Source of the DNA: Thauera linaloolentis 47Lol = DSM 12138
Lineage (GTDB): Bacteria; Pseudomonadota; Gammaproteobacteria; Burkholderiales; Rhodocyclaceae
Direction of reading: 5' to 3'
NCBI RefSeq assembly: GCF_000310205.1
Contig: NZ_AMXE01000042.1
Location: forward strand, 1-34,551
DNA length: 34,551 bases
Shown here: positions 9,958 through 29,036 of the stretch, piece by piece
Layout: each line of letters starts with the position of its first letter
Numbering within the stretch: the stretch's first letter is position 1
Position numbers and translations under genes: made by a program
Notes under the pieces: model-generated
What the model was told of the DNA's origin: nothing
The model's input: the letters and a program-made list of their open reading frames with translations, nothing else
The model's database searches: none

Positions 9958-9976
9958 CGGAAGGTTTCCGTGCCGC

Positions 9977-11950: not shown

Positions 11951-11951
11951 G

Positions 11952-12398: not shown

Positions 12399-12631
12399 GT
12401 TTCCGACTCCATGGCGGGCACCGGTGTGCCGCCCTCTTTTGCTGAACCTCTCGCTGAATCCTTGCCGACGGCGCGCCGCCAGCGCAGCAGCCGCGTGACG
12501 GTGTCCTTCCGGCGCCGCAGGACCAGCACGAGTTCCAGCGCCATCAGCGCAAACGTGAGGCCATAACTGCCCCACACGAAATACGCCGCGCCCCCCATGT
12601 TCCAGAACGCGGACCAGCTCTCCCACTGCAT
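12395..12631 (-). CDS. ccmD: Heme exporter accessory protein CcmD
   Basis: Small membrane protein of 78 aa with one hydrophobic helix (about residues 14-39, containing [23 protein letters not shown]) followed by a basic segment ([15 protein letters not shown]), the standard CcmD layout. It stabilises CcmC-CcmE and is needed for release of holo-CcmE. The ATG at 12631 overlaps the ccmC stop by one base (TGATG) and the stop overlaps ccmE by 4 bp. It is easily missed because its frame is open much further upstream. It is slightly longer than the 69-aa E. coli protein. Confidence 0.9.
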
Positions 12632-13407: not shown

Positions 13408-13468
13408 GCGTCGCACTCGTTGTTGGTACGTTCCACCGGCAAGCCCGCCGCCGGTTCGGGGTTCATCA

Positions 13469-14137: not shown

Positions 14138-14757
14138 GCGTAGGCTCCGACGTCGAGCACGCGCGGCGTCCGGGTGAACGGAGCGTCCTGGTGAGTGGTC
14201 AGCATCACCATGCCGCCGCCGGCGCAGTGTTCGGACAAGGCCTGCGCCAGGTCGGCCACCGCATTGACGTCGAGCGCGGTGAAGGGCTCGTCGAGTACCC
14301 ACAGCGCGCGGCGCGCGGACAGGAACAACCGGGCCAGGCCGACGCGGCGGCGCTGCCCCTGGGACAGCACGCGGGACGGCAGGTCGAGTTGGTCCGCGAG
14401 TCCGATGCGCTCGAGCGCCCGCGTACAGGACGCCTCGTCGCTGTCGTCGCCCGCGGCGGCACAGGCGAAGCGCAGATTCTCGAGCGGGCTCAGCAAGTCG
14501 TTGATGGCCGGCGCATGGCCGAGGTAGAGCAGTTCGCGGTGGAAGGCCTCGCGCTCGCGGCGGATCGATGCCCCCTGCCAGCGGATCTCGCCCGCCTCGG
14601 GCAGCGCCAGGCCGGTGACCAGCCGCAGCAGGCTGGTCTTGCCGACGCCGTTGGGCCCGGCGACGCGCAGCAAATCGCCCGCCTGCAGGCAGAAGGCGAG
14701 TTCGCGGAACAGCAGTCGATCGCCTTTCAGACAGGCGAGATCATGGGCTTCGAGCAT
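14131..14757 (-). CDS. ccmA: Heme exporter ATP-binding protein CcmA
   Basis: ABC ATPase of 208 aa and the first gene of the ccm operon. It has Walker A GPNGVGKT (residues 34-41), signature LSQGQ (131-135), Walker B ALWVLDE (151-157) and the switch histidine H189 in LTTHQ. Length matches CcmA (about 205 aa). The ATG at 14757 gives the normal N-terminus MLEAHDLACLKGDRLLF. A perfect -10 hexamer lies only 9 bp upstream, so the message may begin almost at the start codon. Upstream in-frame sequence without family similarity was not included. Confidence 0.95.
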   Translation of the reverse strand: MLEAHDLACLKGDRLLFRELAFCLQAGDLLRVAGPNGVGKTSLLRLVTGLALPEAGEIRWQGASIRREREAFHRELLYLGHAPAINDLLSPLENLRFACAAAGDDSDEASCTRALERIGLADQLDLPSRVLSQGQRRRVGLARLFLSARRALWVLDEPFTALDVNAVADLAQALSEHCAGGGMVMLTTHQDAPFTRTPRVLDVGAYAC

Positions 14758-14766
14758 GGGGAAACG

Positions 14767-14772
14767 ATTATA
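14767..14772 (-). promoter_or_regulatory. Perfect TATAAT -10 hexamer just before ccmA
   Basis: On the minus strand TATAAT is followed by CGTTTCCCC and then the ccmA ATG. Transcription starting about 7 nt after the hexamer would leave a leader of only a few bases and no ribosome-binding sequence. No good -35 hexamer was seen at the standard distance. Confidence 0.5.
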
Positions 14773-14860
14773 GCGAGGAACACCGCGGCTCTCGCGTTTG
14801 TTCGGCACACTACGCCGCCGCGCCCGCCCTCGGGCAGCCGCGCCCTTGTCCCGAAGCGAC

Positions 14861-14893
14861 GCGGTCCGCGAGGCATGCCGCCCCGCGGACCGC
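14861..14893 (-). terminator. Hairpin after the cytochrome b gene
   Basis: A 10-bp perfect stem (14861-14870 with 14884-14893, arm GCGGTCCGCG) encloses a 13-nt loop that itself contains GGCATGCC. It starts 17 nt after the cytochrome b stop and precedes the ccmA promoter, where the module 1 operon would be expected to end. No T-run follows, so termination is inferred from position. Confidence 0.5.
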
Positions 14894-14909
14894 CAGGCGC
14901 CGGACCCGA

Positions 14910-15713
14910 TCAGTAGGAAGGAATGAAGCGGTTCACCCAGGCGAACAGCTCGATCAGCGGCCACACGATGCAGATCAGGATGCCGGCGATCAGGATGATC
15001 TCGGTGAACACCGGCCCGACCGAGCCGGTCAGGTTGCTGGCGAAGCGCGGCGCCGGCACCTGCGTGTAGTGCTTCAGTTCAGGGTCGGTCACCTCGGCGT
15101 CCTTCACGCCGGTGATCATGCCGAGGACGTGGTTGGTCTTGTGGCATGCCGAGGCCCAGCAGTTGCCGATCAGGTGCAGGGTGACCAGCGAGGCGGCGAT
15201 GTTGCCGCACCAGATGTGCAGGTCTTTGAGGCCGACCGTGATTTCCTGGCCGAACAGCGCGAACGTGGTGAACTCGTCTTCCCAGTCGCTCGGCACCATG
15301 TCCCCGAGGGGCCCCATTTCCTGGCCCGCGCTGTACAGCATCAGGCCCAGCACGCAGGTGCCAAGCATGATGAAGATCAGCGCGAACACCATCGCTCCGC
15401 CCAGCGGATTGTGCGAGATCGTGTGCATCGGGTGGCCGACCACCGAATCGACGCCGTACTTGACCATCGTCTTCGGGCTGTAGATGAAGGTCCAGAAACG
15501 CACCGCGCGCGGGCCGACGAAGCCGTAGACCACGCGGAACAGCATGTAGCCCATGATCACGTAGGCCGCATAGACGTGCAGCGGAAACTTGTCGGACTTG
15601 ATGTACAGCGCGGCGAAGCACAACACCATGACCCAGTGGCCGATGCGGACGATGGGGTCCCAGACCTTGACGAATACCCGGGCCGGAGGCGTGCCCGTTG
15701 CTTGAGTGCTCAT
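14910..15713 (-). CDS. Membrane cytochrome b (Ni-hydrogenase cytochrome b / b561-like), module 1
   Basis: Integral membrane protein of 267 aa with four to five hydrophobic helices and histidines placed as in the di-heme cytochrome b family that serves hydrogenases and formate dehydrogenases. H26 lies in RIGHWVMVLCF and H46 in PLHVYAAYVIMGYMLFRVV. H166 and H180 occur in DLHIWCGNIAASLVTLHLIGN, with H94, H97, H101 and H191 as further candidates. The expected role is exchange of electrons between the quinone pool and periplasmic cytochromes. It is the last gene of a same-strand cluster with a monoheme c, a decaheme c and an MtrB-like barrel, where Shewanella would use the tetraheme CymA. The start ATG at 15713 excludes an unsupported 18-residue extension. 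Direction of electron flow and heme count are inferred. Confidence 0.85.
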   Translation of the reverse strand: MSTQATGTPPARVFVKVWDPIVRIGHWVMVLCFAALYIKSDKFPLHVYAAYVIMGYMLFRVVYGFVGPRAVRFWTFIYSPKTMVKYGVDSVVGHPMHTISHNPLGGAMVFALIFIMLGTCVLGLMLYSAGQEMGPLGDMVPSDWEDEFTTFALFGQEITVGLKDLHIWCGNIAASLVTLHLIGNCWASACHKTNHVLGMITGVKDAEVTDPELKHYTQVPAPRFASNLTGSVGPVFTEIILIAGILICIVWPLIELFAWVNRFIPSY

Positions 15714-15755
15714 GATTTTCTCGGTAGGCAAATGAAGGAAATCCTCGGCCGACGC

Positions 15756-15786
15756 CCGGCCATCCATCTTGGGGATGGACGGCCGG
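15756..15786 (-). repeat. Intercistronic hairpin between mtrB-like gene 1 and cytochrome b
   Basis: A stem of 6 bp plus 6 bp (CCGGCC/GGCCGG and TCCATC/GATGGA) around one A-C mismatch closes a 5-nt loop. It starts 25 nt after the barrel gene stop on the minus strand. It could be an attenuator or an mRNA-stabilising element that lets the barrel and cytochrome b be made in different amounts. No T-run is present. Confidence 0.5.
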
Positions 15787-15810
15787 AACGCCCTGCGCGA
15801 ACCCTGCCGC

Positions 15811-17988
15811 TCAACGGAATGTGTAGATGTAGCGCACGGCGATGAAATTCGCCGTCTGCTTGGGCTTGACGCTCACATACGTGCCGTCGGCATAGCTGAA
15901 CGGCGAGCCGTCGGCCAGCGACCAGGTCCAGTCGTTGGTCTTCCAGCGCTCGTGGATGAAGTCGACGCGCACCTCGGCGCTGTCGTCGATGACGTAGGAC
16001 GAGAACACGCTCACCCTGAACAAGCGGCTGTCGATGTCGGACAGGTCGCCGGAGAAGTTCGCCGGCAGCAGCGTGCTTCCCCCGGGCAGCAAGCTGACGC
16101 GCTGGTCGTACTTGCTGGTGCTGCGCGTCCACTCCAGGTCGGCGCCAACCTTGAGCTGCGACATCGCCTCGCCGCGCACGCCCAGCCCGAACGAGTGGCC
16201 GACGTCCTCGAGCGCGGTATCGAGAATCGCCGGGCTGCCGCCGCCGTTGGCCGCGCGCGCGTTGCGCTGCCGCGCCTTGCTCTGGTCGTACGAGTACCAG
16301 CCGTTGAGCCGCCACGTATCGCTCAGCACATAGGCCGCATCCAGGCTGTAGAGACGTGTCGTGCCCTTGTGCAGGCCGAAGGGCCGCGTGTCGGCGACGG
16401 CGGCGTCGTAGCTGTCGTCGTGCTCGTACTTGTCGCGCCCGTCCTCGATGTTGAACTGGAGGGAGAGGTTTTCCAGCGGCATCCAGTCGAGGGCGAGGCG
16501 GACCTTGTTACGGTCGCGGTCGGCGATGTTCAGGGGGCTGATCCGGTTGCTGAACTGGGCGAACCCCTGGTTGTCGGTGTTGTAGGTGCTGTTCGCGCGC
16601 ACCCAGCTCGAGCCGGAGCGTTCGCTGTACAGATAGGACAGCGAGCCGTTGAGCACCTCGGAGAGCGATTTCCTCAGTTCGAGGCGCCACGTCGTTTCAT
16701 CCACGTCCTTGCGCATCGGCACGACGCGCTGCGCATCCGGTCCGCCCGCGCCGTCGACCACCGAAACCTTGCGGTCCTGCTGGCGCTCATCCACGCCGAG
16801 GGTGACGCGGTAGTCGGACGGTAGCCGGTAGCTGGCCTCGAGCTTGGCGGTCAGGGTTTCGTTGGAAACCGGCATGTAGTTCATGCACTGGTTGACGCCG
16901 CACGCGGGGTTGACCTGGATGAAACGGCTGGTCGGCGTCTTGTCGTCGACATCCTCATAGCGCAGATTGGCCAGCAGCGACAGCTCCTTGGTCGGCCGCG
17001 ACGTCAGTCCGAGCTGGAACAGCTTGGTGTCGACCCGGCCGTCCAGCCTGGACGGCGAGCCATCCACCGAGATGCCGAGGCCCTGTGTCGGCAGGCGGTC
17101 ATCCTGCGTCGCGCGGGTATAGGCCAGCTTGAAGGTGGCGCGGGTGCTGGACGTGAAGTTGTAGCCGCCGTTCAGGTAGATCTGGTGCGCCTGGTTGTCG
17201 AGCGGCTGGGTGAAGTAGGTGGTGCCGCTGAGCGAGCCATCGGCCAGCCTGTTGGCATGGGTCACCATGTCGCGCCGGGTCCTGTACCAGCTCCCGTAGT
17301 ACCCCCCGGACAACTGCAGCTTTTCCGCAGTGTAGTTCAGCACCGCATCGACCTGGCGGGTGGTGCTGTCGATCGGCTCGAGCAGGAAGGTCGGCGAAAG
17401 GCCGCTGGAAGGGCGCAGCCCGCTGCTGCGCCAGCCCGTCTTCTCCTCGTTCTTGAAGTCGAGCTGGAAATCGAGGCCGGGCATCAGGTTCTTGTACAGG
17501 CCCAGGGTGCTGATCTGGCGCTCGCTGCTCGGCCTGACCGTGTGCTTGAGCAGCGAGCCATGGCCCTGAACCTGCGTCGCCCCGCCATTGCTCGTCTGCA
17601 GCGAGGTATTGAAGGTGTTCGGGTTGTCGCGCGTGATGCGCTTGAAGCCCAGCGAGATGCCGACGTCGCCCTGGCGCAGGTATTCGCCGCGGATCTTCTC
17701 GCTGCCGTCGATGCCGAGATTGCGGACATCGAGCTTCCACCACGTGCCGTTATCGGCATCCAGCCTGACGATGTCCGCATCGATCAGCCCGTAGGCCTGG
17801 CCTTCGCGCATGCCATCGTACATGCCCTGCTGGTAGCGGTCCCCGGACCAGTTGCCGATGCCGACCGAAACCGAGCTTTGCGGCTTCATCAGCGCGTCGC
17901 GTTCGTCATCCGCCTGGGCCGGCCCGAAGACGGCCAGCAAGGCGGCGGAGAGAGCGGTCAGGCGAAACACGCTCGTCGTAATGTGCAT
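15811..17988 (-). CDS. MtrB/PioB-family decaheme-associated outer-membrane barrel, module 1
   Basis: Predicted outer-membrane beta-barrel of 725 aa that would sheath the decaheme cytochrome encoded 16 bp upstream and let electrons cross the outer membrane. A signal peptide (about residues 1-26, ending AQA) is followed by a short periplasmic region. The rest consists of alternating amphipathic strands with tight turns, typical of MtrB/PioB/MtoB, including repeated D-R/K strand pairs such as SDTWRLNGWYSYDQSKA. The N-terminal CXXC motif described in Shewanella MtrB is absent; the only cysteines are C363 and C368 in a loop. The C-terminus is IYTFR, so phenylalanine is next to last. Family assignment rests on this architecture and the adjacent decaheme gene. 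Confidence 0.88.
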   Translation of the reverse strand: MHITTSVFRLTALSAALLAVFGPAQADDERDALMKPQSSVSVGIGNWSGDRYQQGMYDGMREGQAYGLIDADIVRLDADNGTWWKLDVRNLGIDGSEKIRGEYLRQGDVGISLGFKRITRDNPNTFNTSLQTSNGGATQVQGHGSLLKHTVRPSSERQISTLGLYKNLMPGLDFQLDFKNEEKTGWRSSGLRPSSGLSPTFLLEPIDSTTRQVDAVLNYTAEKLQLSGGYYGSWYRTRRDMVTHANRLADGSLSGTTYFTQPLDNQAHQIYLNGGYNFTSSTRATFKLAYTRATQDDRLPTQGLGISVDGSPSRLDGRVDTKLFQLGLTSRPTKELSLLANLRYEDVDDKTPTSRFIQVNPACGVNQCMNYMPVSNETLTAKLEASYRLPSDYRVTLGVDERQQDRKVSVVDGAGGPDAQRVVPMRKDVDETTWRLELRKSLSEVLNGSLSYLYSERSGSSWVRANSTYNTDNQGFAQFSNRISPLNIADRDRNKVRLALDWMPLENLSLQFNIEDGRDKYEHDDSYDAAVADTRPFGLHKGTTRLYSLDAAYVLSDTWRLNGWYSYDQSKARQRNARAANGGGSPAILDTALEDVGHSFGLGVRGEAMSQLKVGADLEWTRSTSKYDQRVSLLPGGSTLLPANFSGDLSDIDSRLFRVSVFSSYVIDDSAEVRVDFIHERWKTNDWTWSLADGSPFSYADGTYVSVKPKQTANFIAVRYIYTFR

Positions 17989-18004
17989 GATTTCTCTCCC
18001 TCGC

Positions 18005-18961
18005 TCAGTAGCGGAAACGCCGGGTGGTGATGGCGTCCTGCGTGCTGTTGCTGCCGTGGATGTTGGTATGGCAGTTCAGGCAGCCGCGCGCGACCGTGCC
18101 CGTGGCCGTGCTGCCCAGGACGCCGGAGGCCGTCGGCAGGCCTGCGGCCTGGCTCGGGTGGCTGCTCTGGCTGTGGCATTCCTGGCACAGGAAGGGCGGA
18201 CGGGACTTGAGCAGGCTGGCGGTCGTCGTGCCGTGCGGGTTGTGGCAGCTGCCGCAATCCTCGGCGACGGGCTGGTGGTTGTGCACGAAGGGGCCGCGCT
18301 TCTCCATGTGGCAGCTGTAGCAGGTCTCGTTGACGCTGTTCCTGAGCAACTGCTTGGGATTGTCGCCATGCACGTTGTGGCAGTCCGAGCACGTCATCTT
18401 GCCTTCGGGGATGGGGTGGTGCGAGGGACGGGTAAGCTCGGCGCGCTGCTGCTTGTGGCAGCTGTAGCAGACCTGCGGCTGCTCGAGCTCGTCGCGCACC
18501 TTGTCGTGGCCGGTGTGCACCTGGTGGCAGCTGGTACAGGACACGTCGCGCGCGGCGTGGGTGCTGCTGTTCCAGTTCATGTGCTTGCCGCCCTGGTGAC
18601 AGGACATGCAGGTCGCGCTCTGCTGCTCGGCCGTCAGATGCGATTTCTTGCTGAAGAAGACGTCCGGCGCGGGACGCACCTGCACGTCCTCGGGCTTGTT
18701 GACGTGCGCTTCGCTTTCTCCGTGACAGGTGGTACAGCTCGGCACCCGGCCGTCCTTCGTCACGCCGTGCTTGGTCTTGGCGATCGACAATACGGGGGCG
18801 ACCTCGTATTCGTCATGGCAGCTCGTGCACTTCGCATCACCCTGATAGATGATGTCCTCGCCCTCCTGCGCTTCTTCCTGCGCCAGCGCGGAAGGCGCGA
18901 AAGTGCCGACACCCGCGATCATCAGGGCCGCGAGCAGCCCCTTCTTTATCGTTTTGAACAT
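18005..18961 (-). CDS. Periplasmic decaheme cytochrome c, MtrA/DmsE family, module 1
   Basis: Multiheme cytochrome of 318 aa with a signal peptide (to about residue 27, ALA/Q) and exactly ten CXXCH motifs: at 45, 76, 118, 142, 165, 191, 214, 236, 259 and 294. Extra histidines between them allow bis-histidine ligation. MtrA-type signatures are present, including CYSCHMEKRGPFVHNHQPV, CHNPHGTTTASLL and a C-terminal CHTNIHGSN. Length equals Shewanella MtrA (about 333 aa) rather than the longer PioA. It is expected to insert into the barrel encoded immediately downstream and act as an electron wire between periplasm and cell exterior. It is 28 bp after the monoheme cytochrome gene. No MtrC-like or DMSO-reductase genes adjoin it, so donor, acceptor and direction are open. 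Confidence 0.95.
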   Translation of the reverse strand: MFKTIKKGLLAALMIAGVGTFAPSALAQEEAQEGEDIIYQGDAKCTSCHDEYEVAPVLSIAKTKHGVTKDGRVPSCTTCHGESEAHVNKPEDVQVRPAPDVFFSKKSHLTAEQQSATCMSCHQGGKHMNWNSSTHAARDVSCTSCHQVHTGHDKVRDELEQPQVCYSCHKQQRAELTRPSHHPIPEGKMTCSDCHNVHGDNPKQLLRNSVNETCYSCHMEKRGPFVHNHQPVAEDCGSCHNPHGTTTASLLKSRPPFLCQECHSQSSHPSQAAGLPTASGVLGSTATGTVARGCLNCHTNIHGSNSTQDAITTRRFRY

Positions 18962-18989
18962 GGAGGTACCCCCGGGGCAATCGGACGGC

Positions 18990-19334
18990 TTACGGACGGG
19001 ACAGAATCCACTGGACGACGGCGTTGATCTCGTCTTCCTTCTTCGTCTTCAGCGGCTCGTGGTCCTCTTGCTTGCCCTTGATCTCCACCTTGCCGAAGGT
19101 CGTCACGTGCTTGTGGATTTCCGCTGCGGCATCAGGCTTGTCGCGGTACTTCGCGGCGATTTCCTTGTACGAAGGGCCGTCCTTTGCCTTTTCCGGCGTA
19201 TGGCACTTCATGCAGTTGTTCTTCTTCAGCAGGGACTTGACCTCGTTGTCATCCATGGCGTGCGAAGCGGACGCGCCAAGGAACAAGACGGTACAGGCGG
19301 CGGACAGGGCGGTACGGAACAGGCGGGCTTTCAT
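18990..19334 (-). CDS. Monoheme class I-like cytochrome c lacking an obvious axial methionine
   Basis: Small periplasmic cytochrome of 114 aa with signal peptide (residues 1-26), a single heme site CMKCH (41-45) and a C-terminal helix VVQWIL as in c551/c5 proteins. The mature protein contains only two methionines, one near its N-terminus and one within CMKCH. The region where class I cytochromes carry the axial Met instead reads KQEDHEPLKTKKEDE with H92; H74 and H76 lie upstream. Histidine as sixth ligand, hence a lower potential, is therefore likely but inferred. It is the first gene of module 1 and is suited to shuttle electrons between the cytochrome b and the decaheme protein. A short GAGAG sequence precedes the ATG. 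Confidence 0.9.
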   Translation of the reverse strand: MKARLFRTALSAACTVLFLGASASHAMDDNEVKSLLKKNNCMKCHTPEKAKDGPSYKEIAAKYRDKPDAAAEIHKHVTTFGKVEIKGKQEDHEPLKTKKEDEINAVVQWILSRP

Positions 19335-19423
19335 TTCGGATCTCTCGCACAGGTGGTTCGAAAACGCGCGCCGGACGGGAAAACCGGCTACGACAGTGCG
19401 ATTGTGTTCCGATCCGGAAAAAC

Positions 19424-19456
19424 CCTACATCGGAAAGGGATTAAAGTACCTGTAGG
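19424..19456. repeat. Spaced inverted repeat upstream of module 1
   Basis: CCTACA (19424-19429) and its reverse complement TGTAGG (19451-19456) are separated by 21 bp in the promoter region of the monoheme cytochrome gene. The right arm overlaps the separate inverted heptad site at 19453-19466. Paired half-sites about two to three helical turns apart would fit cooperative dimers or a regulator plus polymerase arrangement. Chance occurrence is possible with 6-bp arms. Confidence 0.35.
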
Positions 19457-19466
19457 AAATATCCTA
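19453..19466. promoter_or_regulatory. Inverted heptad site, candidate target of the adjacent NarL-type regulator
   Basis: TAGGAAATATCCTA consists of two head-to-head heptads, TTTCCTA and TATCCTA, and lies 119 bp upstream of the monoheme cytochrome start. The heptad TTTCCTA is close to the published recognition sequence of the NarL-family regulator BvgA, and NarL-family proteins generally bind paired inverted heptamers. The NarL-type regulator gene lies immediately on the other side of this site. The link is inferred. Confidence 0.45.
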
Positions 19467-19496
19467 ATGCTGCGGCGCGTCCGTCCCGTGCCGCGG

Positions 19497-19514
19497 CCGC
19501 CGGGGATCCGGCGG
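19497..19514 (-). terminator. Hairpin after the response regulator gene
   Basis: CCGCCGG (19497-19503) and CCGGCGG (19508-19514) form a 7-bp stem with a 4-nt loop, 10 nt after the response regulator stop. It lacks a T-run, so it is only a weak terminator candidate separating the regulatory pair from module 1. Confidence 0.4.
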
Positions 19515-19524
19515 AGAGAAGGCC

Positions 19525-20178
19525 TCAGTACAGGTCGCCGGGATCGACGAGGTGATGGGCGATGGCATAGCGCACGAGTTCGGACAGGTTGCCCATTTCC
19601 ATCTTCTGCAGGATGCGCGTCTTGTGCGTGCTGATGGTCTTCACGCTCAGCGACAGTTCGGTGGCGATCTCGGTCAGGCCGTGGCCCTGGACCAGCATGC
19701 CGAACACCTGGTATTCGCGGTCCGACAGCAGCGTATGGGGCAGCACGGTACCGATCGGGCGCAGGGCGCGCGCCATCAGCTCAGCCACCTTCTCACTGAC
19801 ATACACCCCGCCATGCGCAACGCGGCGCATAGCGTGCAGCAGCAGCTCACAGTCGCTTTCCTTGGTGACGTAGCCCGCGGCGCCGGCATGCAGCGCACGC
19901 ACCGCGTACTGCTCCTCCTGGTGCATGCTGAGGACGAGGATGGGCAAGCCGGGCTGCTCGTCCTTGACCAGCCGGATCAGGTCCAGCCCGCTGCGTCCGG
20001 GCATCGAGATGTCGAGCACGAGCAGGTCCCAGGCGCGGCTGCGCACCATATGCACGACCTCGATGCCATTGGCCGCCTCGCCGACGACGCTCAGGTCGTC
20101 GGTCTCGGCGAGAATCTGCTTCAGGCCGTCGCGGACGATGGCGTGGTCGTCGGCCAGTAGCACTTGCAGTTTTCCCAT
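19525..20178 (-). CDS. NarL/FixJ-family response regulator
   Basis: DNA-binding response regulator of 217 aa. The receiver domain has the acidic pair D10/D11, phosphoacceptor D56 in LLVLDISMPGRSG, the switch threonine/serine region LVLSMHQEE and lysine in GYVTKES. A LuxR-type helix-turn-helix follows at about residues 148-212 (LLSDREYQVFGMLVQGHGLTEIA, LSLSVKTISTHKTRIL). It is the partner of the sensor kinase encoded 97 bp upstream on the same strand. Position between two cytochrome conduits suggests it controls one or both, and a candidate inverted heptad site lies beyond its 3' end in front of module 1. The start ATG at 20178 gives the normal MGKLQVLLADDH; a longer frame upstream is not supported. 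Confidence 0.94.
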   Translation of the reverse strand: MGKLQVLLADDHAIVRDGLKQILAETDDLSVVGEAANGIEVVHMVRSRAWDLLVLDISMPGRSGLDLIRLVKDEQPGLPILVLSMHQEEQYAVRALHAGAAGYVTKESDCELLLHAMRRVAHGGVYVSEKVAELMARALRPIGTVLPHTLLSDREYQVFGMLVQGHGLTEIATELSLSVKTISTHKTRILQKMEMGNLSELVRYAIAHHLVDPGDLY

Positions 20179-20209
20179 GCTGCGACTTCTCCTTGTCTGC
20201 AAAATTTTC

Positions 20210-20228
20210 CGGCAGGCATCCCCTGCCG
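20210..20228 (-). repeat. Small hairpin between kinase and response regulator genes
   Basis: CGGCAGG (20210-20216) and CCTGCCG (20222-20228) form a 7-bp stem with a 5-nt loop in the 97-bp gap. On the minus strand it is followed by GAAAATTTTGC, which is not a clean T-run. It may partly attenuate transcription between the two genes; it is weak evidence for a terminator. Confidence 0.3.
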
Positions 20229-20275
20229 AAGCCACGCTGCGCATGCGCGATGCTACCCGGCGCAGGCAGCCTGGC

Positions 20276-22309
20276 TCAGGACTGCACCGGGATCCGCATC
20301 TCGATCCGCGTCCCCTCGCCGGGCACGGAGAATACCGACAGCACGCCGCCATTGGCCCGCGCGCGCTCCCGCATTCCGAGCAGCCCCAGCCCGGTCCTGC
20401 GCACATCGTCCACGACGAAGCCGACGCCATCATCGGATACCGTCAGCCTCCAATCATCGCCATCGCGGCGGAATTCGATCAACACCGCCCGCGCATGCGC
20501 GTACTTGATGATGTTGGTGAGCGACTCCTGCAGCACGCGGAACAACGACAAGGCCTGGCTGCCGCCGCGCGGCGGCTCGTCGCGCTCATCCACGTCGAGC
20601 GTCACGCCCACCCCGGTGCGCTTCGAGAAATCGTCGACGAGCCAGGAGATGGCCGCAACCAGTCCGAGGTCGTCAAGGATCAAGGGGCGCAGCTGGTAGG
20701 TGATGCGGCGCACCGAGCCGATCGTCTGGCTGAGCTGGCCCTTGATGACGCCGACCTTTTCCCTGAGATCGGCCCGATCCGCCGGCAGGCGCCCGCCCAG
20801 CCACGACAGCTCCAGCCGGATGCCGGTCAGGAGCTGGCCGAGCTCATCATGCATCTCGCGGGCGACGTCGGCGCGTTCCTGCTCGCGCACGTTCTGCATC
20901 GCGGTGGACAGCTCCAGCAAGCGCTGGTTGGTGACGCGCAGGTTCTCGTCGCTCTTCCTGCGCTCGGTGAGGTCGCGCAGCACGACGGTGAAGATCCGGT
21001 TGTCGCGGAACACCGTGGCCGAGAAACTGCACTCGGCCGGAAACTCGCTGCCATCGGCATGCAGGCCGCGCATCTCGGCCTGCCCCAGCCCGCCCCGCTC
21101 GCCGAGGCCGGCATCGCGCCAGACCCCGGCGATACGCACGAAAACCGCCCGCGACGGCGGCGCCAGCAAGTCCTCGAAGGGACGGCCGACGAGCTTGGCG
21201 GCATCACAGCCGAACATGTGCTCGGCGGCGCGGTTACAGAGCACGACGGCGAAGCACTCGTCGAGAATGACGATGCCGTCGGTCACCGACTGCAGCATCT
21301 GGCGCAGGCGTTCGTCGCTTTCGCGCAGTTCCGACTCCGCCTCCTCGTGCCGCAGCAAGCTCCAGATCAGGCCGCCCGCCGCGACCAGGATCAACAACGA
21401 GACGATCACCGCGCCGCCGACGATCGGACGCATGATCTGGGGCCATGCATAGAGCGCGTCGTCCTCGTCGATCGCGACTGAAATCGCCAGCGGATACTGC
21501 GGTACGGCCCGGTAAGCGATGAAACGGTTCCGGCCATGCGAGGCCTCGGTCACCATGACGACCTCGCCCGAGACGCCGGGGCCGGGCATCAGGCCGGCGG
21601 GCAGCATGGCGGTGGGCCTGCCGGTCAGCACCGGATCCGGCGGCGCGCCCGCCACCAGCACGCCGCTACCGTCGAGCAGCTCGATGCGCCGCCTCACCCG
21701 CGGGTCGACCCGGCTGTAGAACCCCTCGAAATAGTCGATCAGGATCGACACCGCCAGCACGCCGCGGAAATTGCCTTCCGGATCATCCAGCCTACAGGCG
21801 ATGATCAGCGTCCAGCGGCCGTCGGCGCGGCTGAGGATGGGCGCGCTGATGACCAGCTCCTCGCTGCCGGCGGCGGCGGCGCGGCGGAAATAATCGCGGT
21901 CGGCGAGCGAATCCGGCGGGGGGCCGCCGGGCAGCGAGGAATTGGTCGGGTATCCGTGCGGGTCGATGACGAATATCGACCGGATCTGCGGCAGGCCCGC
22001 GGAGCGGGCGCTGAGCAGGGCCTGCACCGGGAAGCTGTCCAGCGGCAGGCTCTGGCCGATCGTGTCGGACAAACGGTATTGCACACCGCGCAAGGCCACC
22101 GTCGCGCCTTCGAAGGCCCGGCTGCTCTGCTCGGCGAGTATCACGGCCAGGCTGTGGATCTCGGCGCGGGCCCGTTCCAGCTCGGCGCGGCGCAACTCGA
22201 GGAGCACCAGCCCGGCACCGAGCACCAGGGCACTGACAATCAAGGCCGTCAACGCGGCGACTGCGAGGATGGGGGGCTGCAACCAGCCCGCGCGCTCCGA
22301 CTGCGGCAT
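20276..22309 (-). CDS. Membrane sensor histidine kinase with extracytoplasmic Cache-like and PAS domains
   Basis: Sensor kinase of 677 aa. Transmembrane helices at about 15-37 and 295-317 flank a periplasmic region that looks like a double Cache sensor (for example SIFVIDPHGYPTNSS, DSLADRDYFRRA and FRGVLAVSILIDYF). A PAS domain covers about 332-450 (DGIVILDECFAVVLCNRAAEHMFG). A HisKA_3 dimerisation helix has H487 in REMHDELGQ, and the HATPase_c domain has N-box ESLTNIIKYAHA (595-606), G1 DDGVGF and G2 GLGLLGMRERA. This is the NarX/UhpB/DegS type that pairs with NarL-family regulators such as the one downstream. The signal is unknown; Cache domains usually bind small organic molecules. The ATG at 22309 starts a hydrophilic N-terminus directly before the first helix. 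Confidence 0.93.
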   Translation of the reverse strand: MPQSERAGWLQPPILAVAALTALIVSALVLGAGLVLLELRRAELERARAEIHSLAVILAEQSSRAFEGATVALRGVQYRLSDTIGQSLPLDSFPVQALLSARSAGLPQIRSIFVIDPHGYPTNSSLPGGPPPDSLADRDYFRRAAAAGSEELVISAPILSRADGRWTLIIACRLDDPEGNFRGVLAVSILIDYFEGFYSRVDPRVRRRIELLDGSGVLVAGAPPDPVLTGRPTAMLPAGLMPGPGVSGEVVMVTEASHGRNRFIAYRAVPQYPLAISVAIDEDDALYAWPQIMRPIVGGAVIVSLLILVAAGGLIWSLLRHEEAESELRESDERLRQMLQSVTDGIVILDECFAVVLCNRAAEHMFGCDAAKLVGRPFEDLLAPPSRAVFVRIAGVWRDAGLGERGGLGQAEMRGLHADGSEFPAECSFSATVFRDNRIFTVVLRDLTERRKSDENLRVTNQRLLELSTAMQNVREQERADVAREMHDELGQLLTGIRLELSWLGGRLPADRADLREKVGVIKGQLSQTIGSVRRITYQLRPLILDDLGLVAAISWLVDDFSKRTGVGVTLDVDERDEPPRGGSQALSLFRVLQESLTNIIKYAHARAVLIEFRRDGDDWRLTVSDDGVGFVVDDVRRTGLGLLGMRERARANGGVLSVFSVPGEGTRIEMRIPVQS

Positions 22310-22357
22310 TCTGTTCCGGCCGGCTGGCCGGCCAATATTTGGTAACAGATTCTAAGA

Positions 22358-22373
22358 CAGAAGCCGGCTTCTG
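22358..22373. promoter_or_regulatory. Perfect 16-nt palindrome upstream of the sensor kinase
   Basis: CAGAAGCCGGCTTCTG is fully self-complementary and lies 49 bp before the kinase start, between a GC-rich hairpin and the coding region. Position and symmetry fit an operator for a dimeric regulator near the kinase promoter. No known consensus was recognised. Confidence 0.4.
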
Positions 22374-22388
22374 CGGCGCATCACGAAA

Positions 22389-22419
22389 CGGCGGCGCGGG
22401 CCCCCGGGCCCGGCCGCCG
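22389..22419 (-). terminator. Strong GC hairpin after the module 2 cytochrome genes
   Basis: On the minus strand, just downstream of the last module 2 gene (stop at 22424), CGGCGG (22389-22394) pairs with CCGCCG (22414-22419) and an inner GGGCCC pair (22398-22403, 22406-22411) extends the stem. The three bases after it are TTT. This is a plausible terminator separating module 2 from the kinase gene, although the T-run is short. Confidence 0.5.
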
Positions 22420-22423
22420 CAAA

Positions 22424-23131
22424 TCAAGGCTGGCGCGTCCCCGCGGGCAGCGTCAGCCGCGACATGTAGTCGCTGACCGCCTTCAGGTCCTCGTTGCTGT
22501 AGTCGCGGATGAAGATGACCATCTTCGGGTTGGCGTTGCGCCGCTCCCCGTCGCGGATCATCACCGCCTCCTTGTACAGATAGGCGTAGTGCTGGTGCGC
22601 CACCAGCGGATAGAACTCTGTCGCGTTGCCTTCGCCGTTCTTGCCGTGGCAGCTCGCGCAATCGTTTTCGTAGAGCTCGCGGCCGCGCTCCAGGCGGTTG
22701 CCGCTGCCCTTGCCGTTGTCGAGCGAGATCGGCAACTGGTTGAGATAGGCGGCGATGTTCGCCACTTCCTCGACCGACACCACCCACTCGCCGACGAAGG
22801 GATGCATCTTCGGATTGTCGCGGCGCCCCGCGCGCACATCCATCATCTGCTTGATCAGCACCGAGGCATGCTGGCCGGCCAGGCTCGGGTAGATGGCATC
22901 CGCCCGCCCCGAACCGTCCGACTGGTGACAGCCCTGGCAGATCTCGTAGGCGATCTTGCCTTGCTCGATGTCGGGGCGGTGGGCGAGCGCCGCATCCTTG
23001 TCGGGATCGGGCTGGTTCCACACGTAGCCGCTGGATTCGATGCCCGGCGCGCGCGGCGCGGCGTCCGGCTGGGCGAGGGCCGTGCTACAGGCCGTGGCCA
23101 GCACGAACATGGCAGAAAGTGCGGATTTCAT
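22424..23131 (-). CDS. Diheme cytochrome c (c4-like), module 2
   Basis: Periplasmic cytochrome of 235 aa with a signal peptide (about 1-20, ALA/Q) and two class I heme domains. CQGCH is at 65-69 and CASCH at 158-162. Each is followed by a candidate axial methionine in the same context, NPKM (M109 and M204), the pattern of two fused c4-type domains. Met ligation implies a relatively high potential. It overlaps the preceding cytochrome c4-like gene by 4 bp (ATGA) and closes the module 2 operon. A periplasmic electron shuttle between the decaheme conduit and an inner-membrane or terminal-oxidase partner is the likely job. Confidence 0.92.
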   Translation of the reverse strand: MKSALSAMFVLATACSTALAQPDAAPRAPGIESSGYVWNQPDPDKDAALAHRPDIEQGKIAYEICQGCHQSDGSGRADAIYPSLAGQHASVLIKQMMDVRAGRRDNPKMHPFVGEWVVSVEEVANIAAYLNQLPISLDNGKGSGNRLERGRELYENDCASCHGKNGEGNATEFYPLVAHQHYAYLYKEAVMIRDGERRNANPKMVIFIRDYSNEDLKAVSDYMSRLTLPAGTRQP

Positions 23132-23754
23132 TTGCTGGCCTCCAGGCTGGCGATGTACTCCGCCACGGCGCGGGTTTCGGTCTCGCCGAGGCGGCTGGCG
23201 ATGGTCTGCATCAGGCGCTTGTCGTTGGTGCGGCGGCCGTCCGCGAACTGCTGCATCTGGTCGAGCACGTAGGTCGGATGCTGCCCGGCGAGCCGGGGGT
23301 AGCGCGCGTTGCCGACGCCGTTCTGGCCATGGCAGCCGGCACAGGCCGGCACGCCCTGGTCCGGATTGCCTTCGTTGAAGACCCGGCGCCCGGTTTCGAG
23401 CATCGACGGATCGTCGACCTGGCCCGGCGAGGGCTGCTGCGACGCGAAGAACACCGCCGCATCGGCCATGTCGCGGGCGCTCAGGCCCTCAACGATGGGC
23501 TTCATGATGTCGCTCTGGCGCCGCGCGCTGGCAAACTCCTGCAACTGCTTCAGGGCATAGTCGGCATGCTGGCCGGCCAGCTTCGGAAACATGGGGACCG
23601 GGCTGTTGCCGTCCGCGCCATGGCAGGCGACGCAGACCTCGGCGGCAACGGCCTTGCCGCGCTCGAGGTCGCCGACCACCTCGGCGGAGGCGGAGCTGGC
23701 GGCCAGCAGCAGGCCGGCACAGGCCGCCGCTGCGATCATTCTCGAATGCTTCAT
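23128..23754 (-). CDS. Diheme cytochrome c4-like protein, module 2
   Basis: Periplasmic cytochrome of 208 aa, the usual size of cytochrome c4. It has signal peptide ending ASA/E, heme sites CVACH (41-45) and CAGCH (138-142), the c4 motif FPKLAGQHADYALKQLQEF and its second copy YPRLAGQHPTYVLDQMQQF. Candidate axial methionines lie in SDIMKPI (M84) and KRLMQTI. Duplication of the two half-molecules is visible by eye. GGAGG lies about 9 nt before the ATG, just after the stop of a 20-codon frame (23756-23818) filling the gap to the barrel gene. It lies between the module 2 barrel gene and a second diheme gene, forming a tandem pair of soluble electron carriers. Confidence 0.94.
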   Translation of the reverse strand: MKHSRMIAAAACAGLLLAASSASAEVVGDLERGKAVAAEVCVACHGADGNSPVPMFPKLAGQHADYALKQLQEFASARRQSDIMKPIVEGLSARDMADAAVFFASQQPSPGQVDDPSMLETGRRVFNEGNPDQGVPACAGCHGQNGVGNARYPRLAGQHPTYVLDQMQQFADGRRTNDKRLMQTIASRLGETETRAVAEYIASLEASK

Positions 23755-23823
23755 CTCACTTTGCCTCCTGTACCGCTTCCATCGTGGCGATCTCGACCGG
23801 CTGGGAAAGTCGGCGCATGCGTC

Positions 23824-26535
23824 TTACAGCCTGATCTGCAGCAACAGGCCGATCAGGCTGGCCCGGTAGTTCTGCGGACCGGCATCGAGGATGACGGCGG
23901 TCGGCAGCGCGGTGCCCGGCGCATTGACGGCGACCGGATCGGACTCCAGCCCGCTGTAGTGCCAGTCGCGATACCTGCCGTACTCGTGGCGCAGCAGCAG
24001 GCGGGCCGACACCGTCTTGGTCACCGGCACCAGCAGGTTGGCCTCGAGGATGTTCTGGCTGGTCGTCAGGTCCGGGAAGCCGCTGCCCGCGGCGGCGATC
24101 GTGGCCGCGTTGGCATTGGCCGGCAGCGAGTACTTCATCTCGGTCCTGCTCTTGGCATAGGTGTAGCTGATGTCGAACTTGACCTTGCCGAAGTCGTGGC
24201 GCAGGCCGAGCCCCAGGGTGTCGCTGCGGTCCTTGTGGTCCAGCTCCCAGAAGTTGCCGGCCACGAACACCGCGCCCGAGTTCGGGCTCTGGCAGATTTC
24301 CTCCGCGTTCTCGGGCGTGATCACGCCCATCAGGCTCGACGCGCCGATCAGGCAGCCGGTGCCGCCGCCGCTCGGCACCGAGCGCTGGTCGAGCGTCCCG
24401 CGCTGGAAGGAATAGAAGGCGTAGACGTTGCTGGCCGGGCTGTACTGCCAGTCGACATCGACGTTGAACCAGTTCTGCCGCTGCTTGCCGCTGCGCCCGT
24501 AGTCCGAGCTCGGGTAGCGGATCTCCTTGAGCTGGGCCGACAGGCCGATGTCGAGGTCCTCGCGCGGCATGTAGTTGAGGCGGGCATTGAGCGTGTTCTG
24601 GTCGCGGTCGGAGAGGTCGTACTTGCGCATGCCGTTGTTCATGTGCACCACCCACGACTGCACGTTCGAGCCCGCCGCTTCCGGCATCGGCACGATATGG
24701 CCGCTCAGGAAGCTCGCGTACGGATGGTGCGTGTGGTAGCTGCTGCCACGGCGGCGATCGTGGGCGAAGGACAGGCGCACAGTCGTGTCTTCGATGCTGC
24801 GATTCACGTAGCCGAGCTTGTACTTGTCTTCCCAGGTCTTGTCGCGCTCGCGGTGGTCGCGCGCGTAAATCTCGCGCTCGTAGGCGGCGTTGATGCTGGA
24901 AGTCTTGAGCCGCCAGTCCGCCGTCAACCCGGTGTTCAGCTTCCGGTAGTCGTACGGCACGCTGCGGATGGGGATGTTGCCGGCCGCCGCCCCGTTGCCG
25001 CCGTACAGCATGGACACGTTGCTGCCGTCGTTGATCATGCGCCCCCACACCCCGGTGCAGCCGAAGGCGCTGACGCCGCCGGGCGTGCCGTCGCCGCTGT
25101 CGATGTACTCAGCGTTGGGGTTGCAGGCCAGGTAGTCGGTGTGGTTGCGGGTTTCGTAGTAGCGCGCCTTGGCCTTGATGTTCAGGCGGCTGGTCGGGTT
25201 CAGCGACAGCCCGAGGTCGACGAGCCGGGTGTCGATGCGGGCATCGGCCGATTGGCGGCTGAGCGAGTCGGTGCTGTCCCAGTTGGCCGTCGACACGTTG
25301 GTCGGCCGCAGGCCCGAATAGGTGGTGTACGGGACCAGGTCGTCGTCCTGGCGCGACGAACCCATCGACACCACGGCGGTGAAGCGCCCGTTCATCAGGT
25401 CAGGCAGCTTGCGCGCGTACTCGGCCTTGATGTTGTAGGCCTCGTTGTCCGGATAGAGGTCGAAGCGGCCCGCGGTGAACATGCCGGGCGTCGCCCCCGT
25501 GATCGTGCCCGGCGTCACCCGCAGCGGCGTCTCGAAACTCAGCGTGTCGATGTTGTTGCGGAACAACGACGCCGACGCCTGCAGGTTGAAGCTGTTCAGC
25601 GGGTCGGTGTAGTACAGGCCGCCGACGAAGTCGTGCGTCTCGTAGTCGATCGGCTCGATCACCTCCATCGGCGCCTGACCGCCGCCGCCGGCCCACACCG
25701 AACCGAAGGGCCGCGCGCCCTCGCGCTTTTCCAGCGAGTAGCCGGCGAAGACCTTCAGGTTGTCGGTCAGGTTCATGTCCAGGCGCAGGCCGCCCTTCTT
25801 CCGCACCAGCCCGAGTTCGGTGTTGGTGTTGGCCTGCGCGACCGCGGTGATGGCCTGGTTGTCCGCCGCCAGGTCGCCACTGCCGCCCGCGGTCAGGCCG
25901 GGCTTCAGCGTCAGGTTGCCGCTGCCGGCGCCGTTCCACAGCGAGCGGAACGAGGTGGTGAACACGTGCGGCGTTTCATTGTAGAAGGCCTTCACCCGCC
26001 AGTCGTTGTAGCGGCCGAAGGTGGCGCCGTAGAACTGGTCGTCGCGGTCGACCCCACCGCCGACCACTTCGAAGTAGTGGGCGGTGTCCGCCTTCTCGGC
26101 GGAGACGCCGAAGGCGCTCAGGTAGCCGCCATTGCCGACGTCCTTGTAGCGCTTGAAGCCCTGCTCTCGGTGATCGCCCGACACGTGGGTCACGCCGAAC
26201 TCGACGAAGCCGAGGTATTCCCAGCCGCCGGTGGTGCTATGGACGCGATCGCTCGGCACCTTGGGCACGCTGTAGAGCTGCCCGGTCGGCGTGCGCGCCG
26301 CGATCGGCTCGCCATTCAGGCCGTCGGGATCGTAGCCGCTGGTGTAGGTCAGCGGATTCACCGGCGCCAGGTTGAGCGCATTCCCCAGCGAGGTATCGGC
26401 CCCCACCGCGGAGTCGGCCCAGGCGCGCTCGACGGCCATCATCGCCAGCGCCGCGCCCACCAGGACGCTCAGCATCCGGACCTGCGGCTGGACGGAGAGG
26501 CGGACGGCCGCGCAATTCGCATTGACGTTGTTCAT
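23824..26535 (-). CDS. MtrB/PioB-family decaheme-associated outer-membrane barrel, module 2
   Basis: Predicted outer-membrane barrel of 903 aa, about 180 residues longer than the module 1 homologue. The signal peptide is long (to about residue 40, AWA/D). The mature protein alternates amphipathic strands with long polar loops, for example RIDTRLVDLGLSLNPTSRL and EDLDIGLSAQLKEIRYPSS. MtrB-type paired strands such as DRDQNTLNARLNYMPRED are present. No N-terminal CXXC is present; cysteines occur as likely loop pairs C471/C493 and C728/C748. The C-terminus is LLLQIRL rather than the usual terminal phenylalanine. The gene starts 15 bp after the decaheme cytochrome gene. The extra length is in loops, which could cap the outer face of the conduit in place of a surface cytochrome; that is inference. 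Confidence 0.88.
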   Translation of the reverse strand: MNNVNANCAAVRLSVQPQVRMLSVLVGAALAMMAVERAWADSAVGADTSLGNALNLAPVNPLTYTSGYDPDGLNGEPIAARTPTGQLYSVPKVPSDRVHSTTGGWEYLGFVEFGVTHVSGDHREQGFKRYKDVGNGGYLSAFGVSAEKADTAHYFEVVGGGVDRDDQFYGATFGRYNDWRVKAFYNETPHVFTTSFRSLWNGAGSGNLTLKPGLTAGGSGDLAADNQAITAVAQANTNTELGLVRKKGGLRLDMNLTDNLKVFAGYSLEKREGARPFGSVWAGGGGQAPMEVIEPIDYETHDFVGGLYYTDPLNSFNLQASASLFRNNIDTLSFETPLRVTPGTITGATPGMFTAGRFDLYPDNEAYNIKAEYARKLPDLMNGRFTAVVSMGSSRQDDDLVPYTTYSGLRPTNVSTANWDSTDSLSRQSADARIDTRLVDLGLSLNPTSRLNIKAKARYYETRNHTDYLACNPNAEYIDSGDGTPGGVSAFGCTGVWGRMINDGSNVSMLYGGNGAAAGNIPIRSVPYDYRKLNTGLTADWRLKTSSINAAYEREIYARDHRERDKTWEDKYKLGYVNRSIEDTTVRLSFAHDRRRGSSYHTHHPYASFLSGHIVPMPEAAGSNVQSWVVHMNNGMRKYDLSDRDQNTLNARLNYMPREDLDIGLSAQLKEIRYPSSDYGRSGKQRQNWFNVDVDWQYSPASNVYAFYSFQRGTLDQRSVPSGGGTGCLIGASSLMGVITPENAEEICQSPNSGAVFVAGNFWELDHKDRSDTLGLGLRHDFGKVKFDISYTYAKSRTEMKYSLPANANAATIAAAGSGFPDLTTSQNILEANLLVPVTKTVSARLLLRHEYGRYRDWHYSGLESDPVAVNAPGTALPTAVILDAGPQNYRASLIGLLLQIRL

Positions 26536-26550
26536 GTCGAATCCCTCCGA

Positions 26551-27546
26551 TCAGCGCTGGAAGCGGGCACCCGCCGGGTGATTGCTGCCATGGACCTGCG
26601 TGTGGCAGTTCTGGCACGAGCGGCCCATGACGCGGGAGTTGAGGCCGGTGTCGTTGCCGGCCATCTGCGAGGTGTTGTAGAACACCGACGGATGGTTGGT
26701 GTTGGCATGGCACTGCTGGCACAGGGCCGGACGGGCCACCTGCAGCAGCTTGTCGTGGTTGCTGCCGTGCGGCGTGTGGCAGTTGGTGCAGGCCTCGCGC
26801 ACCGGCGCATGCTCCCAGACGAAGGGACCGCGCTTCTCGGCGTGGCAGCTGTAGCAGAGGTCGTTGACCGAATCGGCCTTGAGCAGCGGCGCGGTCGTCG
26901 TGCCGTGCGGATTGTGGCAATCGACGCAGCTCATCTTGCCTTCCGGCACCGGCATGTGCGAACGCTTGCGGAATTCCGCGCGCTGCTGCGAGTGGCAGCT
27001 TTCGCAGGTCTGCGTGATGCTCTGCTTCTTCAGCAGGCTGGTGCCCGAGAAGCGCGCCATCGGGTTGTGGCAGTCGCTACAGGCGAGCTTGTTCAGGTCG
27101 TGCGCGGAACCCGGCCAGTGCATGCGCTGACCGCCCTCGTGACAGCTCAGGCACTGCCCGTTCTGCTTGTCGAGCGGCGTGCCCCAGGACTTGGTGAAGC
27201 CGATGATCAGCGACTTGTCGACGATCTTGTCCCAGGCCTCCCCGCCCTGCGCCACCGGGTCGGCCGCTTCGCTGCCCATGTTCTCGGCATGGAGCGAGCC
27301 CGGCCCGTGACAGGCTTCGCATACCTGGCGCTCGGTCTCGTTCTTCGGGTTCTGGCGAAAGATCTTGGCGTGGAGGGTGTGGCCGAAGTGGGATTCTTCG
27401 ACCTGGTGACAGGAAACGCAGACCTGCTCACCCACGTAGGTGGCATGCCGGGCCGGCTCGTCCGCCGCGCCCGCCGCGCCGCCCGCGAAAAGGGCAGCGG
27501 CCGTCAGTACCGCCCGCAAGGCTGGAAATACACCGGAAAGCTTCAT
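26551..27546 (-). CDS. Periplasmic decaheme cytochrome c, MtrA/DmsE family, module 2
   Basis: Multiheme cytochrome of 331 aa with signal peptide (to about residue 27) and ten CXXCH motifs: at 43, 76, 132, 156, 181, 207, 231, 253, 276 and 311. It shares the order and many blocks with the module 1 protein (CYSCHAEKRGPFVWEHAPV, CHNPHGTTTAPLL, CHTQVHGSN) but has a longer stretch between hemes 2 and 3. The ATG at 27546 has GAGGAG 8 nt upstream; a 15-residue in-frame extension to 27591 is not supported. It is followed after 15 bp by the second barrel gene, so it should form the second outer-membrane conduit. Size fits MtrA/MtoA rather than PioA. It heads the operon, downstream of the AraC-type regulator. 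Confidence 0.95.
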   Translation of the reverse strand: MKLSGVFPALRAVLTAAALFAGGAAGAADEPARHATYVGEQVCVSCHQVEESHFGHTLHAKIFRQNPKNETERQVCEACHGPGSLHAENMGSEAADPVAQGGEAWDKIVDKSLIIGFTKSWGTPLDKQNGQCLSCHEGGQRMHWPGSAHDLNKLACSDCHNPMARFSGTSLLKKQSITQTCESCHSQQRAEFRKRSHMPVPEGKMSCVDCHNPHGTTTAPLLKADSVNDLCYSCHAEKRGPFVWEHAPVREACTNCHTPHGSNHDKLLQVARPALCQQCHANTNHPSVFYNTSQMAGNDTGLNSRVMGRSCQNCHTQVHGSNHPAGARFQR

Positions 27547-27739: not shown

Positions 27740-27757
27740 TGTAACAAGGTGGTTACA
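27740..27757. promoter_or_regulatory. Inverted repeat at the AraC-gene end, candidate operator
   Basis: TGTAAC and GTTACA flank a 6-nt spacer (AAGGTG). The site spans the AraC-family stop codon, about 195 bp before the decaheme start. A similar arrangement, TGTAAC-N5-GTTGCG, occurs at 28847-28863 upstream of the AraC gene itself, and the octamer GGTTACAA is common to both. This makes binding by the AraC-type protein conceivable. Confidence 0.4.
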
Positions 27758-28805: not shown

Positions 28806-29036
28806 CGGCGGATCTCCTCCAGACGTGACAGGAATGCTTCTTGTTTTGTAACCGCCTGTTGCGGCCTTTCCCGAAGCTTGTACTACGAACCGGAAGCCTT
28901 CTGGCCGAAATGGACCCGCCCGGCCCGGCCGGCAGGAGAAGACTGTCGCACTTCGGCAACAGTGTCGACACCCTGCCCGACAGCCCGCCATGCCAGGCCT
29001 CACGGGCACTTCACCCCTTCGGCATGGAAAACCATG

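Follow-up and report, generated by a model that had tools for sequence, protein, structure and literature searches.

The Mto pathway is encoded by mtoABD together with cymA/imoA in Sideroxydans lithotrophicus ES-1, and by mtoABCD in Dechloromonas aromatica and Gallionella ES-2. Along with the Pio system, it is an established case of an MtrAB-type conduit, in which a decaheme wire (MtrA) is paired with an outer-membrane barrel (MtrB), that operates without MtrC. Here we consider a 34,551-nucleotide stretch of Thauera linaloolentis 47Lol (DSM 12138; NZ_AMXE01000042.1), hereafter the window, which is the entire contig C42 of a draft genome (4.2 Mb, 220 contigs, 99.99% complete) and which carries two MtrAB pairs in a single block. 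The two pairs are an unusual new arrangement of a known type of machine, and not a new machine. The whole block, both pairs included, lies on the minus strand, as does the flanking ccm operon, and is transcribed in the order araC, mtrA2, mtrB2, c4, c4, histidine kinase, response regulator, MtoD-like monoheme, mtrA1, mtrB1, cytochrome b561, followed by the cytochrome c maturation (ccm) genes. Module 2 comprises araC-mtrA2-mtrB2 and the two cytochromes c4; module 1 comprises the sensor kinase, its regulator, the MtoD-like monoheme, mtrA1, mtrB1 and cytochrome b561, so that the regulator and kinase separate the two MtrAB pairs.

How does this block compare with the systems described so far? Module 1 resembles Mto in its decaheme wire, its MtrB/PioB barrel, its MtoD-like monoheme with a distal His, and its lack of MtrC. 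It differs in having its own two-component system, and in an inner-membrane partner that is a 267-amino-acid (aa) cytochrome b561 without c-hemes, rather than CymA/ImoA or a CbcL-type MtoC. The nearest described analogue, going by the available text of PMC5566968, is a Gallionellaceae mto operon, downstream of which come a pair of small cytochromes and a fusion of cytochrome b561 with a diheme part. As in the mtrBAC-omcA-mtrFED cluster of Shewanella, two conduits share one cluster; however, those of Shewanella come with MtrC/MtrF and OmcA and are regarded as duplicates in what the sources set out (PMC8805035, PMC4222724), whereas a deep split separates the Thauera conduits, for which no surface cytochrome was found. 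A diheme periplasmic cytochrome beside MtrAB is also a trait of the PdsA-associated MtrCAB of Group 2 and part of Group 3, as outlined in Baker et al. (PMC8805035), but the Thauera dihemes match cytochrome c4 structures, and there is no MtrC. Their assignment to PdsA was rejected, because their NF049874 scores, 61 and 44 bits, fall below the cut-off (330). PioABC, which is used for electron uptake, is likewise an MtrAB-type conduit without MtrC, and the wire model TIGR03508 bears the name of DmsE, as in DmsEFAB; among the ten block open reading frames (ORFs) scanned, neither a PioC-type high-potential iron-sulfur protein nor a dimethyl sulfoxide reductase-type enzyme (DmsA/DmsB) was found.

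Both modules are MtrAB-type porin-cytochrome conduits, each consisting of a decaheme MtrA and an adjoining MtrB/PioB barrel. The wires, mtrA1 (18005..18961, 318 aa) and mtrA2 (26551..27546, 331 aa), each carry 10 CXXCH and exceed the TIGR03508 cut-off (271 and 259 bits against 192), and the barrels, mtrB1 (15811..17988, 725 aa) and mtrB2 (23824..26535, 903 aa), match PF11854 with 449 and 344 bits and also pass the cut-off of TIGR03509. Matches to the strict heme pattern number 26 across the window; shuffled versions average 2.3, and none of 100 shuffles reaches 26. An AlphaFold2 model of MtrB2, built on 33 sequences (mean predicted local distance difference test score 81, predicted template-modelling (TM) score 0.75), shows, by our own count, 26 predicted long strands whose longer connecting loops all point to the same side, and its best solved match is 6r2q_B of the Mtr complex (E 2e-41, TM-score 0.65 by query and 0.89 by target). 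An earlier note on this DNA, made from the letters alone, had described two decaheme-barrel pairs on one strand with a two-component system between them and barrels that differ by about 180 residues; families and coordinates confirm this layout, and the difference is 178 residues.

The same note had seen neither MtrC nor CymA, and the genome-wide searches agree, having turned up neither an MtrC nor a dedicated CymA. TIGR03507 (OmcA/MtrC) gave two weak matches in the whole genome, the best at E 0.08 and neither reaching the cut-off. Of six MtrB_PioB matches, the two over the cut-off are mtrB1 and mtrB2, and all eight Paired_CXXCH matches (E 0.1) lie inside mtrA1 and mtrA2. The eight matches of PF22113 fall in both MtrA, in NapC, in one NirT-like and one NapB-like protein, and in DnaJ; this genome search revealed no further multiheme protein, DnaJ being the sole match beyond known heme proteins. 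PF03264 matched three proteins, namely mtrA2, the NapC of the nap operon and the NirT-like protein beside nirS, where nap operon, nirS and NapB are names that we assigned by eye from translations. NapC and NirT are themselves, however, CymA-family proteins.

Both pairs belong to the same families and stand adjacent on the same strand, as a recent tandem duplication in the manner of mtrCAB/mtrDEF would leave them. However, the wires are just 37% identical (over 286 columns) and the barrels 20% (over 642 columns), and in both the wire tree and the barrel tree, of 58 rows each, the split between type 1 and type 2 has a Shimodaira-Hasegawa-like approximate likelihood ratio (SH-aLRT) of 100. As the pairs fall on either side of these branches and their partner genes differ, we give recent duplication practically no chance. 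This phylogeny sustains the proposal of two distinct conduits in the earlier note, although the MtrA tree that includes the S. baltica reference is marked by long branches, and its placement there is unsure. The note's expectation of one conduit per known locus has to be given up: besides the Shewanella cluster, two MtrAB sets are found in each of the genomes G180 and G246, three in G034, and further multi-conduit loci are L208, L211 and L261. In L265 (G034) and L266 (G246), three and two consecutive MtrAB sets adjoin ccm genes. L208, L211 and L261 come from metagenome-assembled genomes (MAGs; Azonexus, Nitrosomonadales, Rhodanobacter), and each contains two type-2 conduits; L208 has an incomplete MtrA in one of them, and L261 has a c4-like gene for each conduit.

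Module 2 is the old resident of this locus and module 1 a later arrival. In Thauera sp. Sel9 and T. butanivorans NBRC 103042, the order nap, araC, mtrA2, mtrB2, c4, c4, ccm is uninterrupted, with mtrA2 89 and 90% identical to that of the window, and the AraC-family regulator upstream of mtrA2 (27753..29009) is syntenic and 78-79% identical. Pseudothauera rhizosphaerae has the same gene order, where a 4-heme ORF and a 2-heme ORF are those that we take to be NapC and NapB; the presumed NapC adjoins araC-mtrA2 in both congeners and in Pseudothauera, and the nap operon of the window genome matches the nap place of the congeners at 92%. Against the two congeners, blastn blocks stop at 14759, on the ccm side, and resume at 22441; the interval between, 14760..22440, contains module 1 and measures 7,681 bp in the window, as against 93 bp in Sel9 and 96 bp in T. 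butanivorans, at whose corresponding place the stretch is absent. The DNA block with ccmA is 91% identical to the congeners, and the ccm operon that flanks module 1 (7609..14765) is syntenic in them; ccmI was identified by NCBIfam, and the other ccm genes were named by eye from translations. Because the order is uninterrupted in the outgroup genus Pseudothauera too, module 1 was probably gained in this lineage. A plasmid origin was considered and rejected, as tblastn of both barrels against plasmids gave no match.

The two genes that follow mtrB2 encode a diheme cytochrome c4 (23128..23754) and a diheme c4-like protein (22424..23131), which match the cytochrome c4 structure 6q2u in the PDB at E 3.2e-45 and 2.4e-19. 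Cytochromes c4 are high-potential proteins with His/Met ligation, and when the pair is aligned with a solved c4, three of the four Met positions coincide and the fourth is off by one. This MtrAB-c4 unit recurs well beyond the window. MtrB is present in 3 of 29 Thauera genomes, the window genome counted, and the other two hold module 2 only; at family level, MtrB2 finds a match at 1e-10 in 42 of 395 genomes, in some of them a weak one. Among the 18 family type-2 loci that were annotated (L077 was left out), c4-like genes stand beside mtrB in 12, are lacking in four, one of which ends 0.8 kb past mtrB, and two loci are cut; an araC match lies near mtrA2 in six. A further set consists of 80 named loci, the best of at least 583 relatives, of which 67 have room for a neighbour, 11 are cut and two have no mtrB2 match: a c4-like gene lies downstream of mtrB2 in 46 of the 67, and elsewhere in one. 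The remaining 20 have no c4-like gene, and the family loci L094 and L095 carry MtrAB alone, both of which speak against a fixed tie between conduit and c4. In the 80 named loci, 40 of which reach 20 kb, the only ORFs with at least four CXXCH are complete or partial MtrA and, in L185-L187, a 4-heme ORF; conduits of type 2 accordingly lack an MtrC in their neighbourhood. Many of the loci L231-L264 hold type-2 MtrA-MtrB, mostly with a c4-like gene, in Xanthomonadales (Dyella, Dokdonella, Stenotrophomonas). Type-2 MtrAB also occurs in MAGs labelled Opitutaceae, Opitutus or Opitutia (L191, L201, L202, L209, L210, L215), which suggests either transfer or a binning error.

The earlier note had the characteristic partners missing. 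This is not supported: module 2 has its two c4, plus a NapC neighbour in the congeners, and module 1 has an MtoD-like protein and a cytochrome b561. The MtoD-like monoheme cytochrome c (18990..19334) has as its best PDB match 4xxl (E 3.9e-22), the MtoD of S. lithotrophicus ES-1 according to PMC4412085; the region of the distal His aligns and the His is conserved, with bis-His ligation of the MtoD kind predicted. The cytochrome b561 (14910..15713) belongs to PF01292 and has no CXXCH; its ORF at 14910 encodes 285 aa, or 267 aa from the second Met. In a relative, L088, the corresponding gene encodes an 8-heme protein whose membrane half is likewise PF01292 and which fits the description of MtoC/CbcL-type proteins as far as PMC6295460 gives it. 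Ten of 20 other module-1-type loci continue with an ORF of this 8-heme class (7 to 9 CXXCH), and at 1e-4 the cytochrome b561 of the window found a match in none of the 20. Given the shared PF01292 and the absence of CXXCH, the Thauera protein may correspond to the membrane half of the MtoC-like protein minus its multiheme head. In L176-L180, a cytochrome b561 lies immediately downstream of MtrAB. The locus L184 has a pair of MtoD-like monoheme and cytochrome b561, with no conduit genes within the fetched 19 kb. One report weighs against MtoD as the partner of MtrA1: in ES-1, MtoD showed no interaction with MtoA or ImoA in the experiments related in PMC13390432, in which the monoheme PmcA did interact, and the same source allows that MtoD may serve a terminal oxidase. 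It is therefore possible that MtoD is not the partner of MtrA1.

Module 1 itself looks like a patchwork, in which the barrel would derive from one lineage, and MtoD, cytochrome b561 and perhaps the wire from another. MtoD and cytochrome b561 are nearest to those of L176/L177 (65/63% and 74/68% identity), the barrels of which share just 32/29% identity with mtrB1. Likewise, the DNA of these two loci aligns with the window over cytochrome b561 and mtrA1-mtoD, and over mtrB1 there is no match except one 85-bp patch in L177. The barrel mtrB1 falls within the mto group, with L136 (support 78); grouping it with L176/L177 was rejected by the approximately unbiased (AU) test (p-AU 9e-6), and so was pairing mtrA1 with L136 (p-AU 0.004). 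A second such case may be seen within one genus, between L136 and L149, which are syntenic and 88% and 80% identical before mid-mtrB and 89% after it; about 1.4 kb of mid-mtrB aligns over one 202-bp patch only. The wire of L136 groups with those of L139, L149, L146 and L155 (100/100), and holding its barrel with the same four was rejected (p-AU 0.0002). Baker et al. (PMC8805035), by contrast, describe disagreement between the trees of MtrA and MtrB as rare, owing to the structural link between the two.

Several points weigh against this picture of barrel exchange. The grouping of mtrA1 with L176/L177 is weak (support 72/93.8), and the AU test does not reject an alternative in which mtrA1 joins 21 mto-type rows (p-AU 0.319). 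The exchange could have taken place in the L176/L177 lineage rather than in that of the window. For the second case, protein identity along the length of the L136 and L149 barrels is 35-69%, so that fast divergence without recombination may be enough to account for it.

Does module 1 also bring its own control? Its sensor histidine kinase (20276..22309; dCache, PAS, HisKA_3) and LuxR-type response regulator (19525..20184; at most 70% identical to regulators of mto-type loci) precede a 38-bp, operator- or promoter-like block, TAGGA-N4-TCCTA-N8-TTAATCC-N4-CCGAT (19429..19466), that sits 95-132 bp before mtoD. In a motif scan with shuffles, the block has one match in the window at up to three mismatches, and none in 100 shuffles. 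Eight of 29 module-1-type loci in relatives have homologues of both kinase and regulator; the block is found at up to three mismatches in five of these eight, as against 1 of the 21 loci without the two-component system (L176; Fisher p 0.0025, a value that is too small since the rows are related), and at up to five mismatches in all eight, again against 1 of 21. The exact TAGGA-N4-TCCTA core was found neither in 13 type-2 loci nor before module 2. In L176, an exact 38-bp block lies before mtoD (14215-14252), with no matching kinase-regulator pair in the fetched 20 kb. We consider the block a candidate operator of the module 1 response regulator. Other details count against this assignment: the mismatch threshold was picked after the sites had been seen; the 5-mismatch site of L138 differs from that locus's TAGGA-N4-TCCTA core, which is otherwise spaced; the two-component genes of L141 lie downstream of the operon; and a one-mismatch core occurs in 2 of the 13 type-2 loci (L092, L097).

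Since module 1 was inserted beside module 2, could the two simply be coincidental neighbours? In that case, c-type cytochrome operons would tend to land at the ccm locus, and the conduits would do unrelated jobs and be functionally unlinked. The insertion is clean relative to the congeners, the multi-conduit loci of G034 and G246 also lie beside ccm, ccm genes occur in 15 of 80 named loci, and six mtrCAB clusters beside ccmA-I are recorded in Baker et al. (PMC8805035); the exact operator core, moreover, was found only before module 1. On the other hand, shared carriers or shared conditions could still connect the two, and Pseudothauera rhizosphaerae retains the two module types on a single contig, at a distance of 33 kb. 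We rate chance adjacency as a serious contender, somewhat short of an even prospect, and it is compatible with our preferred explanation, which requires no functional link. Here the earlier note's idea of a dual extracellular electron transfer locus divides: two distinct conduits there are, but adjacency alone is no proof of a joint system, because module 1 is inserted beside module 2.

Our preferred explanation, to which we would give about an even chance, is that these are two independent conduits, separately wired and regulated, module 2 with c4 and module 1 with the quinone pool, with inward flow likely. Each MtrA would thread its own MtrB and let electrons cross the outer membrane without any multiheme protein at the surface, the outermost MtrA heme then meeting the substrate directly. 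Module 2 would exchange electrons with its pair of periplasmic cytochromes c4 and so connect to the high-potential branch of respiration, be it an oxidase or denitrification, and module 1 with the quinone pool via cytochrome b561, whether or not MtoD takes part; its own sensor kinase and regulator would switch on module 1 via the 38-bp block before mtoD. Net flow would most likely be inward, from a reduced donor outside the cell, for example Fe(II), reduced humics or a cathode, and this uptake may supplement organic growth in an organism in which no RuBisCO was found: the large subunit had no match in the genome at E 0.001, as against matches in 5 of 14 control genomes. The potentials given in the portion of PMC4412085 on these proteins, +155 mV for MtoD against +30 to -350 mV for the MtoA hemes, would favour uptake, since flow from the wire to MtoD would run downhill. 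So would flow to c4, with its high potential.

Partner pairing, flow direction, substrate and control are what we infer here, and some considerations count against them. The partner assignments follow from gene order; the lack of a RuBisCO match weakens a lithoautotrophic role; and Shewanella MtrAB is described as electrochemically reversible in the relevant passages of PMC12016527.

This reversibility is also an argument for outward flow, to Fe(III), humics or an electrode, in which module 1 would be fed with quinol via cytochrome b561 and module 2 via the nearby NapC. Families of cytochrome b561 are able to oxidise quinol, and the presumed NapC stands beside araC-mtrA2 in both congeners and Pseudothauera, with the window genome's nap operon matching that place at 92%. 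However, most module 2 loci are tied to c4 and not to a dedicated quinol dehydrogenase, the type-2 module is present in many records from Xanthomonadales, which are mostly aerobic, and no MtrC for solid acceptors was found. Outward flow is thus conceivable and, in our estimate, rather unlikely. Still less probable is a non-respiratory use, in which the conduits would reduce or oxidise toxic oxyanions or metals, or give the cell surface redox protection. One congener with module 2 is named Sel9, a mere hint of selenium; no detoxification genes were recognised in the block, and direct evidence for such a role is lacking.

Returning to inward flow, we posit a more daring version of it, which we consider doubtful: a split electron inlet, with a c4 branch (downhill, to oxidase or denitrification) and a quinone branch that work at two different potentials under separate control, in which barrels are exchanged between operons as cassettes while the wire and its partners stay. 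Such a view runs against the notion of MtrA and MtrB as partners that always evolve together.

At 131-7566, the window encodes an RND (resistance-nodulation-division) efflux permease and adaptor, an Lrp-type regulator, a D-amino acid dehydrogenase and an alanine racemase. From 28923 to the contig end, and over about 1.1 kb of contig C26, runs a cassette of fecI (presumably, as named by eye from its translation), fecR, a TonB siderophore receptor and a PepSY protein; the right end of the window shares 63 bp with the left end of C26, and the fecR frame is continuous across the join. This cassette lies between nap and araC here and is not present in the two congeners.

In the titles, abstracts and passages of open-licence papers that our searches covered, we found no account of two deeply different conduit types with separate partners in one block, of an Mto-like operon that ends in a plain cytochrome b561, or of an MtrAB-c4 unit, and a search on MtrAB in Thauera or Rhodocyclaceae gave nothing useful. 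The MtrAB-c4 unit without MtrC, distributed from Thauera to Xanthomonadales, is a clear target for study. The locus shows conduits that have been added, rewired and, it appears, partly swapped at a single chromosomal place, and one strain would make it possible to ask whether the direction and the potential of extracellular electron flow depend on which inner partner a conduit has.

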